A stretch of DNA of 21,091 nt from a virus. Shown here one piece after another: positions 830 to 11,397 of this stretch (position 1 is the first letter of the stretch; each line of letters begins with the position of its first letter). A program made the translations under genes and the position numbers. The stretch covers positions 1 through 21,091 of IMG/VR virus record IMGVR_UViG_3300041409_000417. One strand, 5' to 3'. The notes under the pieces were generated by a model. That model saw only the letters and a program-made list of their open reading frames with translations. It was not told the origin of the DNA and did no database searches.

Positions 830-904
830 TGGAGCGGGAGACCGGGATCGAACCGGCGACATTCAGCTTGGGAAGCTGACGTTCTGCCACTGAACTACTC
901 CCGC
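830..904 (-). tRNA. tRNA-Gly (anticodon CCC)
   Basis: Read on the minus strand, the acceptor arms GCGGGAG and CTCCCGC pair over 7 bp, followed by discriminator T and an encoded CCA (830-832). The anticodon stem TCAGC/GCTGA closes the loop TTCCCAA, giving anticodon CCC (glycine codon GGG). The T arm GCCGG-TTCGATC-CCGGT is standard, and the D arm contains AGTTCAGTGGCAGAAC. All arms are intact, so the gene should be functional. Its 5' end faces the prophage and its 3' end faces the chromosome. This is the reverse of the usual polarity when a phage inserts at a tRNA 3' end. Confidence 0.97.
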
Positions 905-5303: not shown

Positions 5304-5567
5304 ATGCCTCAGTTCTCCTCCGTCCGCCCCGCGTCTGATTCAGATGAAGTCGACATCGAGCGCGTTCCGCGTCACGTTGCCGCAACCGCTCTCCGTCCAG
5401 CCCGGTCCTTGAGGCCGGGTGTCTCGATGATGGAAGCCGCCGCCGCAGGCCAACTTGAAGCGTGCGCAATCCGTGATGGATGGAGGTTCTCGTATCCCGT
5501 TCGCATCCTGAGCCGCGCAGAACAGGACCGCTTCGAGCGCGAAATCCCGGTGGTGTTCATTGGCTAG
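5304..5567 (+). CDS. hypothetical 87-residue early protein
   Basis: The product is not recognised. The start is well supported by AAGGAA 6 bases upstream of the ATG. The leader (GGAAtCCATCATGCCT) is nearly the same as that of the HNH gene at 4699. The protein is soluble, with an Asp/Glu-rich N-terminal part (DSDEVDIERV), a central Arg/Ala-rich stretch and a C-terminal segment FSYPVRILSRAEQDRFEREI. No cysteine pairs or membrane spans are seen. Its last 8 bases overlap the TTG start of the sigma-like gene, so the two are probably translated together, and the protein may act with or on that factor. Confidence 0.7.
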   Translation: MPQFSSVRPASDSDEVDIERVPRHVAATALRPARSLRPGVSMMEAAAAGQLEACAIRDGWRFSYPVRILSRAEQDRFEREIPVVFIG

Positions 5568-6057
5568 CTCCGACCTTGATCTCGCTTACAACGTGTGGTG
5601 GACGTCGCCTCGGTCCAATTCTGACCCGACCGAACTCATGAATGCTGTCCGGAAAGAAGCTCTCGCTATGTGCCGGTCATCGCAGGACGGGGAGGACGTA
5701 GCACAGGAAGCCATGTTGGTGGTGTCCAATGGGCTGCACTCATTCCATCGGGCGACGCCGACAGCCTTCTCTCATTGGGTGCGGTCAATCATTCGACGCA
5801 AGCGGCTGGAACTCTACCGCACGTCCTCTCATCACACCCGGGAATTCGATGAGGGCACGACGAACTTACCGTCGGAGGGCGTTGAAGTAGTCTTCATGGA
5901 CACCAGTTTGCTACCTCCGTCCATACAGTCTGTCGCTTCTGGCATCCTGGCCGGCTACAGTCTGACGGAGATTGCGGGGCAGTTGGGAATCACCTCAGCA
6001 GCTCTCAGAAACCGGCTTGCCAGATTCCGCGCATCTGCGTTACGGAACGCCGCCTGA
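5560..6057 (+). CDS. sigma-70-like (ECF-type) transcription factor
   Basis: This 165-residue protein has the two-domain plan of ECF sigma factors. Residues ~26-90 resemble region 2, with GEDVAQEAMLVVSNGLHSF matching the DDAEDLVQETFL-type helix and SHWVRSIIRRKRLELYR matching the segment that binds core polymerase and the -10. Residues ~118-160 resemble region 4, with an HTH (AGYSLTEIAGQLGITSAALR). It should direct RNA polymerase to phage promoters, most simply those of the late operon downstream; that role is inferred. The start is TTG at 5560, inside the end of the previous gene. No anti-sigma gene is obvious beside it unless the 87-residue protein serves as one. The linker between domains is short, and the protein could instead be an ArpU-like late activator. 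Confidence 0.8.
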   Translation: MASSDLDLAYNVWWTSPRSNSDPTELMNAVRKEALAMCRSSQDGEDVAQEAMLVVSNGLHSFHRATPTAFSHWVRSIIRRKRLELYRTSSHHTREFDEGTTNLPSEGVEVVFMDTSLLPPSIQSVASGILAGYSLTEIAGQLGITSAALRNRLARFRASALRNAA

Positions 6058-6263: not shown

Positions 6264-6989
6264 ATGTCGGAACCCCTTCAAGCAGTAGCAGGTCAGGTCG
6301 CGGACAATACCAAGTCGTTCTTTCACTCAGACGTGTTCCACAACCACATCCGAAGCTGGACGTTCGTTGTGCTGGCCATCTTCCTCATGAGTTTCCTGTG
6401 GGTTCACGAGTCGAACAGCAACACTGCTTCCAATGCCACCGCCGCCGCGGTCCTAAAGCAGGGCCAGGAAACGCAGGCCGCTCTCACCAAGCAGATCGAC
6501 AGTGTGAAGTCAGATACTGCTTCCAAGGTCGCCGTCATCCAGGCACAGGCTGATTCGACGAGGACAGTAGCGCAGGCCATCGCCGCGCTGCGAACCGCTT
6601 CCGGGTCCGGTCAAGGCGTATCCCTCCAGCCCATCATCGTCGAGCCAGCGCAATCTGCAACAGCATCATCAGCAGCCCTCTCCCCGACAACCACCGGCAC
6701 TCAGACAGCATCCGGCGACACACCGGTCGCAACCATCACCGGAAACGACCTGAAGACCCTGGCCGATAACGCTTTCGCCTGTGACCAGAACGCCATCAAG
6801 CTGGACGGTTGCCGTCAGGAGCTCAACTTTGAGACAGCGAAGGTCAGCGAGTCCACTAAGGAAGTCGCGGCGCTCAAAAGCATCAAGCAGCCCTCAGCGT
6901 GGAAGCGAACGCTTACAGTAACGAAGCACGTAGCAGTCGGCATCCTCATCGGTACTGCAATCGGCGCCTCACTCATCGCAGGCAAGTAG
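6264..6989 (+). CDS. membrane protein with a span at each end and coiled-coil middle
   Basis: This 241-residue protein has a membrane segment at residues 32-47 (WTFVVLAIFLMSFLWV) and another at 223-239 (VAVGILIGTAIGASLIA). Between them lie an Ala/Gln/Thr-rich coiled coil (60-110), a Ser/Thr/Pro-rich linker (112-155) and a second helical part (160-207) with two cysteines (173, 183). GAGGTAG 6 bases before ATG supports the start. The C-terminal part resembles small phage proteins of the form Cys...Cys, helix, WKRTLTxTKHxAxG, transmembrane; I recall these from phage genomes as uncharacterised. The topology recalls spanin or lysis proteins, but no lysis genes flank it. It lies between the sigma-like gene and the HNH/packaging block. 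Function is open: envelope, injection or lysis roles are all possible. Confidence 0.72.
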   Translation: MSEPLQAVAGQVADNTKSFFHSDVFHNHIRSWTFVVLAIFLMSFLWVHESNSNTASNATAAAVLKQGQETQAALTKQIDSVKSDTASKVAVIQAQADSTRTVAQAIAALRTASGSGQGVSLQPIIVEPAQSATASSAALSPTTTGTQTASGDTPVATITGNDLKTLADNAFACDQNAIKLDGCRQELNFETAKVSESTKEVAALKSIKQPSAWKRTLTVTKHVAVGILIGTAIGASLIAGK

Positions 6990-6993
6990 CTAC

Positions 6994-7350
6994 ATGCCAT
7001 CCAGAGCACAACGCCCATGTCGACGTACCGGCTGCCCGGCTCTCGTCAAGAGCGGCTTATGTGAATCCCACAAACAAGATGCACGAACTTATGACCGGTG
7101 GCGCGGCTCAGCAGCGTCGCGCGGCTATGACGGTGCCTGGTCTCGCTTACGTCTAGTTGCGTTGGAGCGTGACAACTTCCTGTGCCAACGCTGCTTGGCT
7201 GGAGACATTGTCACCCCGGCCCAAGATGTCGATCACATCCATCCAATCAGCCAACGACCGGACCTACGCTTGGTGCTCACGAACCTTCAATCACTGTGCA
7301 GGGCGTGCCATAGCGCAAAGACCGTCAGCGAACAGGCTAGTCGGGCGTGA
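6994..7350 (+). CDS. phage packaging-type HNH endonuclease (HK97 gp74-like)
   Basis: A 118-residue HNH protein. The N-terminus has its own small zinc finger, CRRTGCPALVKSGLCESH (Cys9, Cys14, Cys23, His26). The nuclease core is YDGAWSRLRLVALERDNFLC (residues 45-64), then the Cys64/Cys67 pair, Asp80-His81 in VDHIHP, Asn98 in LTNLQSLC, and Cys102/Cys105-His106. In many tailed phages such an HNH protein is encoded next to the terminase and works with TerL in DNA cleavage during packaging. Here it starts 4 bases after the membrane-protein stop, behind GGCAAG. It is separated from the terminase genes by a minus-strand gene and a methyltransferase gene, which looks like a later insertion into the packaging cassette. 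Confidence 0.92.
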   Translation: MPSRAQRPCRRTGCPALVKSGLCESHKQDARTYDRWRGSAASRGYDGAWSRLRLVALERDNFLCQRCLAGDIVTPAQDVDHIHPISQRPDLRLVLTNLQSLCRACHSAKTVSEQASRA

Positions 7351-7385: not shown

Positions 7386-7934
7386 CTAGAACTTGTGGCC
7401 GTTCTGATACCAATGAACCGCCAGAGTTCCGATACTCAGAACAAGGGTTAGAAGAGCGGCACGATATGTCCACCGAAACCGCTTCTCACCACGGCGCACG
7501 TGAACCCACGCTTCGTCAAGCACGCATTCAGTTCTTACCATCAGGACTTTGACAGCTTCCTCCACGTCGCTGAACGGTCTCGCGGCGTGAGATGACAGTG
7601 CAGCCAAGCGCTCCATCGCATCAATGAGTTCAGTGGAGCGTGCTTTCCTGGAATCCAGCCTCAGCTTAATTCGATATGTGAGATTGTTTGCTTCCGCAAC
7701 GAGATCATCGGTCGCTCCAGTCTTCACGTCAAAAGTTATCCGGTCTTGCAACCGATACTTGATGTTGGCGTGGAATAAAGCGACCGAGACAGAGCAAAGC
7801 TTAGCAACGTCCTCTCTGAGCGCATCGATCCACTGCTGCCTGAACTCTGACACTTTCGAGTCCTTGCCTACGGCCAGACTGATCGTCGCGACACTCGCAC
7901 CGATGATCGAAGTCAGCATTGCTCCGCTATCCAT
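7386..7934 (-). CDS. minus-strand two-span membrane protein, moron candidate
   Basis: This 182-residue protein is encoded against the direction of all neighbouring late genes. It has a hydrophobic N-terminal segment (residues ~6-22, MLTSIIGASVATISLAV), then KVSEFRQQWIDALREDVAKL, a signature I recall from bacterial membrane proteins of unknown function. A charged helical cytoplasmic region (50-155) and a C-terminal span (~160-175, AALLTLVLSIGTLAVHW) follow. AGGGG 5 bases before ATG supports the start. A putative private promoter with an overlapping palindrome lies upstream. A lone reverse-oriented gene with its own promoter inside a late operon is the classic form of a moron expressed from the prophage. 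Such genes often give superinfection exclusion or defence, but no activity can be read directly from this sequence. Confidence 0.78.
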   Translation of the reverse strand: MDSGAMLTSIIGASVATISLAVGKDSKVSEFRQQWIDALREDVAKLCSVSVALFHANIKYRLQDRITFDVKTGATDDLVAEANNLTYRIKLRLDSRKARSTELIDAMERLAALSSHAARPFSDVEEAVKVLMVRTECVLDEAWVHVRRGEKRFRWTYRAALLTLVLSIGTLAVHWYQNGHKF

Positions 7935-7949
7935 AATCCCCTCACCTGC

Positions 7950-7979
7950 ATAGTACCCGACCGGGTAGGGGGGTCTAAA
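7950..7979 (-). promoter_or_regulatory. putative promoter and operator of the minus-strand gene
   Basis: On the minus strand TTTAGA (7974-7979) and TACTAT (7950-7955) are 18 bases apart, each matching the sigma-70 consensus at 4 of 6 positions. The palindrome TACCCG-GT-CGGGTA (7954-7967) covers the spacer and touches the -10, as an operator would. The predicted leader is short, about 9 bases, which weakens the call. Confidence 0.38.
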
Positions 7980-8074
7980 TCCTTCCGAGTCAGCGACCTC
8001 GGAGACCGCTCCCTGGGCACATTTTCACCGCCGCGAAATGAAGGGTGGGGGTATAGACCCTCAAGGACGACCAT

Positions 8075-9265
8075 TTGCTACTCTCAGACCTCATCCCCGA
8101 TGCCCGCAACGCAAACAAGGGCACCCAACGTGGCCACAAGCTAGTTGCAGAATCGCTTAAACGCTATGGGGCGGGCAGGTCTATTCTCATTGACCGCGAT
8201 GGCCGCGTCATTGCAGGCAACAAGACTGCTGCAAATGCCTCATCGCTTGCTTCAGATGACGTAATTGTTGTTCAGAGTGACGGAAGCAGGTTAGTCGCCG
8301 TACAACGCACCGACCTGTCGCTGGATGACCCGGAGGCGAAGGCCCTCGCCATCGCCGACAACCGGGTCGCCGAACTCGGCCTTGAGTGGGACGCTGCTGT
8401 GCTTGGCGAGATGGCGGGTGAGCTAGACCTCAAGCCCTTCTTCACCGAAGCTGAATTCCACAGCATCGTTCCCCGCACTATCGCAGAAGAAGAGGATGTT
8501 CCGGAACCACCAGCGGAGCCGATCACCAAGCCCGGCGACCTGTACGTGCTCGGTGACCATCGCCTCCTGTGTGGGGACGCCACCATCGTCACAGACGTCG
8601 AGCGGCTCATGGATGGCGAAATGGCTGACTTGAATTGGACCGACCCACCTTACAACGTGGCTTATACCGGCAAAACGGACGAAGCATTGAATATCCTGAA
8701 CGACTCCATGGGAGCGGAGGCCTTCCGACAGTTTCTCCATGATGCCTTCTCGAACGCTCTCATGGTTACGAAGCCTGGCCGCCCTGTTTATGTTGCGCAC
8801 GCCGACATGGAAGGCCACAACTTCCGCCTCGCGTTCATGTCGGCGGGATGGTCTCTTCGGTCCTGCCTGATTTGGGCGAAGAATTCCCTGGTGTTAGGGC
8901 GCGGAGACTACCACTGGCAGCATGAGCCGATCCTTTACGGCTGGGCTCCAGGTGAGGCTCACGTTTGGTACGGCGACCGGACCCAGACGACAGTATTGGA
9001 ATTCGACCGGCCCACACGAAGCACTTCCCACCCAACGATGAAACCGGTTGGGCTCGTCGAATACTGCATCGGTAACAGCAGCCTGCAAGGTGACCGCGTC
9101 CTCGACCTCTTTGGTGGATCGGGAACCACGCTCCTAGCGTGTGAAAACACCGGGCGCAAGGCGTACACGATGGAACTCGACCCGCGATATTGCGACGTGA
9201 TCGTCGCTCGCTGGAAAGCCGTCACCGGAAAGAAAGCTACTCTCCATGCCCGGTCGGAAACCTAA
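8075..9265 (+). CDS. ParB-like domain fused to DNA (adenine-N6/cytosine-N4) methyltransferase
   Basis: A 396-residue fusion. Residues ~1-105 resemble the ParB/sulfiredoxin N-terminal domain (SLKRYGAGRSILIDRDGRVI, then GNKTAANA as the GHR-like box, and IADNRVAELGLEW). Residues ~150-396 form a beta-class amino-methyltransferase: catalytic DPPY at 190-193 precedes HPTMKP (319-324) and the S-adenosylmethionine loop FGGSGTT (346-352). It should methylate specific DNA sites, probably to protect phage DNA from host restriction or to mark DNA for packaging. No restriction gene accompanies it, so it is an orphan. The start is TTG with AAGGA 8 bases upstream. Its end overlaps the terminase small subunit gene by 20 bases, linking its expression to packaging. 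Target sequence cannot be predicted. Confidence 0.93.
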   Translation: MLLSDLIPDARNANKGTQRGHKLVAESLKRYGAGRSILIDRDGRVIAGNKTAANASSLASDDVIVVQSDGSRLVAVQRTDLSLDDPEAKALAIADNRVAELGLEWDAAVLGEMAGELDLKPFFTEAEFHSIVPRTIAEEEDVPEPPAEPITKPGDLYVLGDHRLLCGDATIVTDVERLMDGEMADLNWTDPPYNVAYTGKTDEALNILNDSMGAEAFRQFLHDAFSNALMVTKPGRPVYVAHADMEGHNFRLAFMSAGWSLRSCLIWAKNSLVLGRGDYHWQHEPILYGWAPGEAHVWYGDRTQTTVLEFDRPTRSTSHPTMKPVGLVEYCIGNSSLQGDRVLDLFGGSGTTLLACENTGRKAYTMELDPRYCDVIVARWKAVTGKKATLHARSET

Positions 9266-9758
9266 GCCCACAGCTATCAAGCTGCTTGATGGCAACCCGG
9301 GCCACCGCCCCATCAACAAATCTGAGCCCCAATTCTCCGGCACTCCGACTTGCCCGAAGCATCTGGACAAGGTTGCGAGAGCCGAGTGGCGACGCGTTGA
9401 AAGCGAACTCGCTGCAAGCGGTCTGCTGACCACTGTAGACCGTGCTGCACTGGCAGCCTACTGCTCCGCATGGAGTCGTTGGGTGAACGCAGAAGAGAGC
9501 ATTCAGAAGTTCGGTGCGGTCATCAAGTCGCCGAAGTCTGGGTTCCCTATCCAGAATCCTTACGTCGGCATCGCAAACACGGCCATGGATCAGATGCGGA
9601 AGTTCCTGGTCGAGTTCGGCATGACGCCATCGTCGCGTTCTCGCGTCCACGCGGCAGATGCGCCGACCAGCGCAGATCCATTCCAGGACTTTATGGCGTC
9701 GCTCGGCGCGAGTGACATCACGAATGACGAAGAAACCCTACAGCCAGAGAGCGCATGA
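9246..9758 (+). CDS. terminase small subunit (P27 family)
   Basis: A 170-residue protein that recognises phage DNA and recruits the large terminase. P27-type features are clear: the basic N-terminus GRKPKPTAIKLLDGNPGHRP, then CPKHLDKVARAEWRRV (residues ~36-51), ELAASGLLTTVDRAALAAYC (54-73), and the central helix with WSRWVNAEESI. The C-terminal part (MRKFLVEFGMTPSSRSRV, 116-133) is the usual multimerisation and DNA-contact segment. ATG 9246 lies inside the end of the methyltransferase gene; its stop lies inside the start of the large subunit gene. The length is normal for the family. Direct contact with the HNH protein from 6994 is expected only by analogy with other phages. Confidence 0.93.
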   Translation: MPGRKPKPTAIKLLDGNPGHRPINKSEPQFSGTPTCPKHLDKVARAEWRRVESELAASGLLTTVDRAALAAYCSAWSRWVNAEESIQKFGAVIKSPKSGFPIQNPYVGIANTAMDQMRKFLVEFGMTPSSRSRVHAADAPTSADPFQDFMASLGASDITNDEETLQPESA

Positions 9759-11397
9759 CTACTGCCGCAGGGTAGTTTCACGCGAGGTTATCGCTTCCAA
9801 GTGGATTCGACTCGCTGCCAAGCGTCACCTTGATGACCTGGAACGAAGCGACAACCGCTGGTACTACGACGCTATAAAGGGCGACCGAGTTTGCGCTTTC
9901 ATTGAGCAGCATCCTCACGAAAAGGGACCGAAGCAAGGCCAGCCCTTCTTGCTCGAAGACTGGCAGGTGTGGATTGTCTGCTCGATCTTCGCTTGGGTAG
10001 ACCACTCAGGTACTCGCAAGCACCGCGAAGCTTTCCTGCTCATCCCGCGCGGCCAAGGCAAGTCGCCTCTCGCCGCTCTCCTCGCCCTCTGGATGACCTT
10101 CTTCGACGGCGAAAAGGGTGCAGAAACACTGACCGCCGCCACAACAGAGAAACAGGCCCGAGAGGTGTTTGGGCCTGCGTTGCATTTCGTCCGCGAAGTA
10201 CCCGCGTATGCTCGGCTGGGAATCACAGCGGCTGCGAAGTCGATATTCCAAACGAGAACTAGCGCAAAGTTCAACGCGGTCATCGGCAAGGCTAAGTATG
10301 GCTCCGCCCCTTACTGCTGCATCATGGATGAGGCTCACCAACTCCTTGACAGTCAGCAATATGACAACTTCCGCACAGGACTAGCCAAGAGACGCAACTC
10401 CCTTCTGCTCACGGTCACCACCGCCGGTGTTGCAGCAGCCGAGAACCCGGCCTATATCCTTCAGACGGACTGCGAGAAAGTCCTACAAGGGGTAGTCGAA
10501 AACGACCGCATCTTTGCGGCCATCTACACCGCCGACCTCGATGTGGACTGGACCTCGCTCGAAGCGCTCCAAATGGCGTGCCCGAACCTTGGGGTGAGCG
10601 TCGACGCTGAGTCTCTGGCTCTGGATCAAGCTGAAGCTGTTCGCAAACCGGCTCGCCAGAACGGCTTTCGAGCGATGCACCTCAATCAGTGGATGACCGC
10701 CACCGCAGCCTGGATGAATATGTCGTCCTGGGGCAAGTGCTATGACCCGGACCTCACAGAAGACAGCGTCAAGCACCTACCTTGCTGGATCGGCTCCGAC
10801 CTCGCATCCAAGCTGGACCTCAGCGCCGTCGTCCGCCTCTATCGAGACGATAGTCAGGGCGACCGGCCACATTACTATGCTTTGACCCGGACCTATCTCC
10901 CCGAAGAACGCGTCAACGCGCCTGAACTGACGCACTACTTTGGATGGTCGAAGCAAGGCTACCTGACGTCAACGCCCGGCTCCTCCATCGATTACGCCAC
11001 GCTTGAGGCCGACGCACTATCCGACATTGCAGGCAACCAGGTTCGGGAGCTCGCTTTCGACCCCCGGTACGCCGATCAATGGTCCTTGAGGCTCTCCGAG
11101 CTATCAGACGTGACCCGCGTTGAAGTACCGCCATCACCCGCGGTACTGTCACCGGCCATGAAAGAAGTCGAATCTGCTGTCGCTGACGGTCGCTTCCATC
11201 ACGACGCACACCCTGTATTGACCTGGTGTATGTCCAACGTTCTCACCCGCGAGTCAGCCGCCGGGAATTACTCGATGCCGACCAAGCAACGGCCCGAGAG
11301 CAAGATCGACGCGGCTATTGCGTTGTTCATCGCAATGGCGCGGGCACGGTTATCCGAGCCCGAACCATCCTCTAACTTCGCTTTCCTTATGGTCTAA
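9724..11397 (+). CDS. terminase large subunit (HK97-like)
   Basis: A 557-residue packaging motor and nuclease. Walker A is PRGQGKS (residues 108-114), Walker B is CCIMDEAH (about 198-205), and the coupling motif is LLLTVTTAG (227-235). The RNase-H-like nuclease has acidic residues Asp359 (WIGSDLASK), Asp446 (LAFDPRYA) and Asp529 (SKIDAAIALFIAM), so both ATPase and nuclease sites look intact. The frame is open from an ATG at 9658, but that start would bury 101 bases in the small subunit gene. ATG 9724 gives the usual N-terminus, with YSQRAHDYCRRVV followed by IRLAAKRHLDDLER, so it was chosen; no strong ribosome site marks it. The stop touches the portal start (TAAATG). Confidence 0.95.
   Translation: MTKKPYSQRAHDYCRRVVSREVIASKWIRLAAKRHLDDLERSDNRWYYDAIKGDRVCAFIEQHPHEKGPKQGQPFLLEDWQVWIVCSIFAWVDHSGTRKHREAFLLIPRGQGKSPLAALLALWMTFFDGEKGAETLTAATTEKQAREVFGPALHFVREVPAYARLGITAAAKSIFQTRTSAKFNAVIGKAKYGSAPYCCIMDEAHQLLDSQQYDNFRTGLAKRRNSLLLTVTTAGVAAAENPAYILQTDCEKVLQGVVENDRIFAAIYTADLDVDWTSLEALQMACPNLGVSVDAESLALDQAEAVRKPARQNGFRAMHLNQWMTATAAWMNMSSWGKCYDPDLTEDSVKHLPCWIGSDLASKLDLSAVVRLYRDDSQGDRPHYYALTRTYLPEERVNAPELTHYFGWSKQGYLTSTPGSSIDYATLEADALSDIAGNQVRELAFDPRYADQWSLRLSELSDVTRVEVPPSPAVLSPAMKEVESAVADGRFHHDAHPVLTWCMSNVLTRESAAGNYSMPTKQRPESKIDAAIALFIAMARARLSEPEPSSNFAFLMV

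Follow-up and report, generated by a model that had tools for sequence, protein, structure and literature searches.

A probable accessory gene for a predicted inner-membrane protein beside the putative cos site of an HK97-like phage

Accessory-gene slots (morons) are already known, and the bor gene of phage lambda is such a moron. Among the described systems closest to the locus discussed here, gp15 of phage HK97 is a superinfection exclusion protein which blocks DNA injection (as cited in PMC10883804), and SieA of phage P22 is an inner-membrane prophage protein of 162-164 aa with a conserved motif on the cytoplasmic side and three predicted transmembrane (TM) helices (PMC10883804). In addition, HK97 has its HNH gene directly upstream of the terminase and cos (PMC10448857), and the HNH protein, gp74, stimulates cleavage at cos (PMC11331095). 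The gene treated in this article resembles HK97 gp15 and lambda bor in that it is optional among conserved phage genes and has a membrane or envelope product, and gp15 acts from the lysogen against DNA entry, as is proposed for the present protein. It belongs, however, to another family, has no recognisable promoter or terminator and flanks a putative cos, and its function is a proposal. With SieA the protein shares small size, a predicted place in the inner membrane, a prophage origin and conserved sequence on the (here predicted) cytoplasmic side, but it has two TM segments instead of three, and no profile for a known exclusion family matches it.

The window, that is, the whole stretch of DNA that was analysed, comprises 21,091 nt (positions 1-21,091 of the virus record IMGVR_UViG_3300041409_000417). 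Its left end carries a fragment of a host S41 peptidase gene, a tRNA-Gly gene and an integrase ORF, and these are followed by sigma-like, HNH, methyltransferase, terminase, portal, protease, capsid and tail genes in this order. The tRNA-Gly (CCC) gene (830-904, minus strand) stands directly before the integrase gene and is the likely prophage attachment site. The closest relatives of the phage are found in Terriglobia genomes (portal 77% in G557), which suggests an acidobacterial host. The window phage is probably an HK97-like temperate phage of Acidobacteriota. The sigma-factor-like protein (5560-6057, plus strand, phrog_1740), encoded upstream of the HNH gene and kept in the relatives, may drive late transcription. 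A 241-aa protein (6264-6989, plus strand) has a hydrophobic segment at each terminus and weakly matches Rz-like spanins (E 0.05).

The reverse-strand gene itself (7386-7934, minus strand) encodes 182 aa from an ATG start, and a Shine-Dalgarno-like sequence (AGGTGA; AGGTGAGGGG at 7937-7946 on the same strand) can be read ahead of the ATG, in line with the ribosome site named in the original prediction; the range up to 7979 considered there is the ORF plus its upstream region. The slot in which the gene lies is bordered by the HNH endonuclease gene (6994-7350, plus strand, phrog_144, E 4.9e-39) on one side and by a gene for a ParB-like plus DNA methyltransferase protein (8075-9265, plus strand, phrog_498, E 1.6e-132) on the other, and the latter is followed by the small terminase gene terS (9246-9758, plus strand, phrog_83, E 4.7e-53) and the large terminase gene terL (9658-11397, plus strand, phrog_9, E 2.8e-138). 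This agrees with the predicted placement. That the minus-strand ORF is a real gene is borne out by its relatives, which were found by tblastn in 4 and then in 62 viral loci, the latter in one IMG/VR scan, and by 15 residues that are invariant in 48 aligned sequences (K24, K27, S29, E30, F31, R32, Q33, W35, I36, R40, L139, W143, V146, G149 and E150). Homologues also occur in Acidobacteriota genomes (3 carriers among 297), in Pseudomonadota genomes, including 15 of 5426 complete Escherichia coli genomes, and in large replicons. The E. coli homologue is WP_021557039.1 (L070:12001-12546).

The window protein falls above cut-off into no Pfam, NCBIfam, PHROG or PADLOC family (0 matches among the PADLOC profiles), and a PDB sequence search yields no family. 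The only Pfam match is LacI (E 0.12), with no exclusion family such as SieB or Imm, and known superinfection-exclusion profiles matched none of 8 relatives of the protein. Neither the window protein nor the E. coli homologue has a match in the phage-record collection, and a literature search for the family found no mention. Two identities were considered and rejected. The SLATT and DUF4231 profiles, which describe two-TM effectors, have no match in the window protein, whose TM helices are about 130 residues apart and not adjacent; among the 8 relatives DUF4231 appears in one at E 0.29 and SLATT_5 in one at E 0.0012. The LeoBC model is matched by 22 of 48 members, yet at 16.8 bits or less and only at positions 480-583 of 601, that is, at the C-terminal hydrophobic end. 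The family is widespread and, by these searches, previously undescribed, so that it is regarded here as new.

The original prediction took the gene for a moron, and the comparison with relatives found by TerL and portal bears this out. Their common order is sigma-HNH-methyltransferase-terS-terL-portal-protease-capsid, and in most of them the gap between HNH and methyltransferase is 110-210 nt with no gene. The slot is empty in 9 independent relatives (L071, L075, L081, L086, L089, L102, L119, L122 and L126) and is occupied in others by unrelated reverse-strand genes: a HIRAN protein in L074 (3775-4371, minus strand) and a Rap1a protein in L125 (5267-5908, minus strand), both above the Pfam cut-off, a 3-TM ORF in L101, a 76-aa ORF behind a strong ribosome site in L104, and a 108-aa ORF together with a plus-strand 137-aa one-TM ORF in L078. 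The coding status of the L101 and L104 ORFs is judged from the ORF and sequence features by themselves, and the L101 protein has no relative but itself in viral contigs. The HIRAN-domain protein of L074 stands alone as reverse cargo. A Rap1a-family gene is also present in the same phage slot of L130 (3526-4167, minus strand); the family is named for immunity proteins, and its occurrence as phage cargo is unusual.

Both a missing gene and another gene in its place are therefore seen at this site, and a conserved core gene in the same place did not appear among the relatives. A homologue in the same slot and orientation is carried by L162 (43% identity, portal 77%), which has no methyltransferase gene, and L012, whose TerL is only 26% identical, has one in the same orientation between methyltransferase and capsid, at the HNH-to-head junction (38% identity). 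The window gene and these two homologues form one clade (support 100/99), which indicates that this gene lineage is tied to its position, though it is lost or replaced in close relatives. The GC content of the gene is 0.53 against 0.58-0.64 for its neighbours, a modest difference. The empty or replaced slot and the clade at one junction together give good support to moron status, and the gene is very probably accessory cargo in a variable slot.

Upstream of the gene the original prediction had placed a promoter covered by a palindrome. The palindrome TACCCG-GT-CGGGTA (7954-7967) is exact and occurs once in the window, but a consensus scan finds no promoter at it. The best hexamer pair, TTTAGA-18-TACTAT, agrees with 8 of 12 positions of a consensus that may not fit this host, and this is background level, as 8/12 or better is reached by 17% of the 100-nt pieces taken from the window at random. 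Of such random pieces, 7% contain a perfect 6+6 repeat with a loop of 2 nt or less. Upstream of the homologues, inverted repeats whose loop may be as long as 8 nt are only somewhat commoner than expected, with 14 of 56 against a background of 16%. Of the two same-site relatives, L162 has an unrelated palindrome and L012 has none. Moreover, the right arm lies in box 1 of a DNA module which is kept in relatives without the gene, so the palindrome is not evidence of an operator for the gene. It was therefore rejected as a conserved operator, such repeats being not clearly above chance and the element not being common to L162 and L012. No terminator-like site was found 3' of the gene, nor any promoter above background. 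Thus, of what had been seen, the gene, its position and the palindrome sequence stand and the promoter does not; of its interpretation, the moron and the membrane design stand, whereas the promoter and palindrome fall away as evidence.

The module just mentioned (about 95 bp, 7961-8060) is found between the HNH gene or the cargo and the start of the methyltransferase gene or terS. In the window its parts are box 1, GGGTAGGGGGG, then GAGACC, then TTTTCAC..CGCGAAATGAAGGGTGGGGGTAT, and across the relatives it reads GGGATAGGGGG, then GAGACC, then TTTTCAC-CGCGAAATGAA-GTGGGGGTAT. It also occurs at L162:15540-15650, where the box is about 100 nt from the gene, and in L071, L126, L074 and others. The window, L162, L074 and L078 have their cargo between the HNH gene and the module; in L101, L104 and L125 it is found past the module. 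Since its place between HNH and terminase recalls that of cos in HK97, the module is a candidate cos or packaging site of this phage group. As in the HNH-terminase-cos region of HK97, the HNH gene is near the terminase and the candidate cos; unlike in HK97, they are separated by a methyltransferase gene and by cargo on the reverse strand that varies, and cos is here putative. A cargo slot which flanks the putative cos is a new arrangement.

Away from this phage group the homologues are found as cargo-like single genes with changing neighbours, in unrelated phages at unrelated sites. In L030 and L058 a tight row consists of genes for a CI repressor, an FRG protein, a membrane protein, the homologue and an integrase; the row of L030 (5639-9608) has gaps of 11-25 nt and looks like a lysogenic operon. 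Genes that come after the repressor gene of a temperate phage are often expressed in lysogens. The E. coli homologue, on the other hand, follows ren and so belongs to the nin region, within the lytic operon. Reverse orientation was rejected as a family-wide trait, because among 38 loci scored against supported neighbours 16 are opposite, 17 the same and 5 mixed. This split and the E. coli nin copy together mean that lysogen-only expression is not a rule of the family. No partner gene recurs among the neighbourhoods, which points to a stand-alone function.

The membrane-cytoplasm-membrane design which had been proposed for the protein is supported by a confident structure prediction and by its charge distribution. 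Hydropathy gives two hydrophobic segments, at about residues 5-23 (TM1) and 155-173 (TM2), and the AlphaFold model built with the family alignment (mean pLDDT 91.4) has helices at 2-62, 65-92, 98-115 and 121-179, the two long ones running from the membrane into a four-helix bundle. The Lys/Arg count, 7.9 for the side with the bundle, is 1.4 for that with the termini; 54 of 54 sequences show a bias of this sign, by which the bundle is predicted to be cytosolic. The protein would accordingly sit in the inner membrane, with its bundle hanging inward and neither terminus in the cytoplasm. Conservation is high near the membrane, with 3.61 bits at residues 24-42, 2.37 at 81-95 and 3.03 at 138-154, and only 1.1-1.5 bits in the distal stretches of the bundle. 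The membrane-proximal motifs are KxxKxSEFRQxWIxxLR, RLxLRLN and EWxRVKxGE, and that the three stretches lie at one height is deduced from helix lengths, not from coordinates. Foldseek against the PDB and viral models gave nothing at E below 1e-3.

The likeliest role, put forward tentatively and at slightly less than an even chance, is in superinfection exclusion or defence, exerted in the lysogen from its inner membrane; it is proposed because the protein is a prophage-borne inner-membrane protein whose slot is common to other accessory genes. The protein would be made at a low level in the lysogen and, from the inner membrane, would stop an infecting phage as its DNA enters or just afterwards. 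It may work through the conserved layer at the junction of bundle and membrane, and the variable part of the bundle farthest from the membrane may set what is recognised. Belief and doubt are about evenly balanced for the whole proposal of a cos-flanking cargo gene with low lysogen expression and exclusion at the inner membrane, in which the gene, the family, its patchy presence and the variability of the slot come from sequence, topology and fold come from a model, and we infer lysogen expression, exclusion and cos. A more specific version is possible and decidedly more doubtful, namely a stand-alone exclusion family (TM-cytosolic four-helix bundle-TM) in an acidobacterial slot on either side of cos, where unrelated reverse-strand protective genes (HIRAN, Rap1a, 3-TM and this family) would replace one another at the chromosome ends in the virion.

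Other readings have to be weighed against exclusion. The nearest folds are the two-TM sensor bundles of QseE, NarQ, PcaY (PcaY_PP) and Tar (Z 11-12.7, identity 4-13%), which are likewise arranged as TM, helix bundle and TM around two long continuous helices, and a moron product might alter host physiology (membrane stress, envelope or signalling) through a membrane-coupled bundle serving as an inside-out sensor. Two observations are in line with it: conservation sits next to the membrane, the place at which a signal would be passed on, and some homologues, such as that of L010, are carried by bacterial chromosomes or by large replicons with no obvious prophage core around them. However, Z values up to about 13 are background for helical bundles in such comparisons, the charge bias places the bundle in the cytosol and not in the periplasm as in those sensors, there is no output domain, and most relatives are found in viral records, so this is unlikely. 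An abortive-infection or toxin-like effector, in which the bundle would sense a phage product and the membrane helices would open or disrupt the inner membrane, accords with the two-TM architecture, the stand-alone gene, accessory neighbours such as FRG in some prophages and the weak, below-threshold similarity to LeoBC TM segments and SLATT models. The LeoBC similarity, though, is confined to low scores over the C-terminal hydrophobic part, the two TM helices are apart, where those of SLATT/DUF4231 are adjacent, and no partner gene recurs, which leaves such an effector rather improbable.

It is very unlikely that the gene is a lytic-cycle auxiliary (with a part in packaging, in lysis or in regulation, such as that of an anti-sigma factor for the phage's own sigma factor) and is on the other strand by chance. 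Most close relatives lack or replace it although their packaging genes are all there, and the family is also found in unrelated phages at unrelated sites. What speaks for this reading is that the gene is placed within the packaging block and next to a conserved stretch of DNA, that the E. coli homologue belongs to a lytic operon and that a sigma-like protein is among the products of the window phage. Soil is rich in Acidobacteriota, yet hardly any work has been done on their phages. A slot at a fixed position, in which reverse-strand cargo is swapped beside the probable packaging site, is a handle for finding more such genes, and the family, with its frequency among complete E. coli genomes, is common enough for the proposed exclusion to be tested in laboratory strains.
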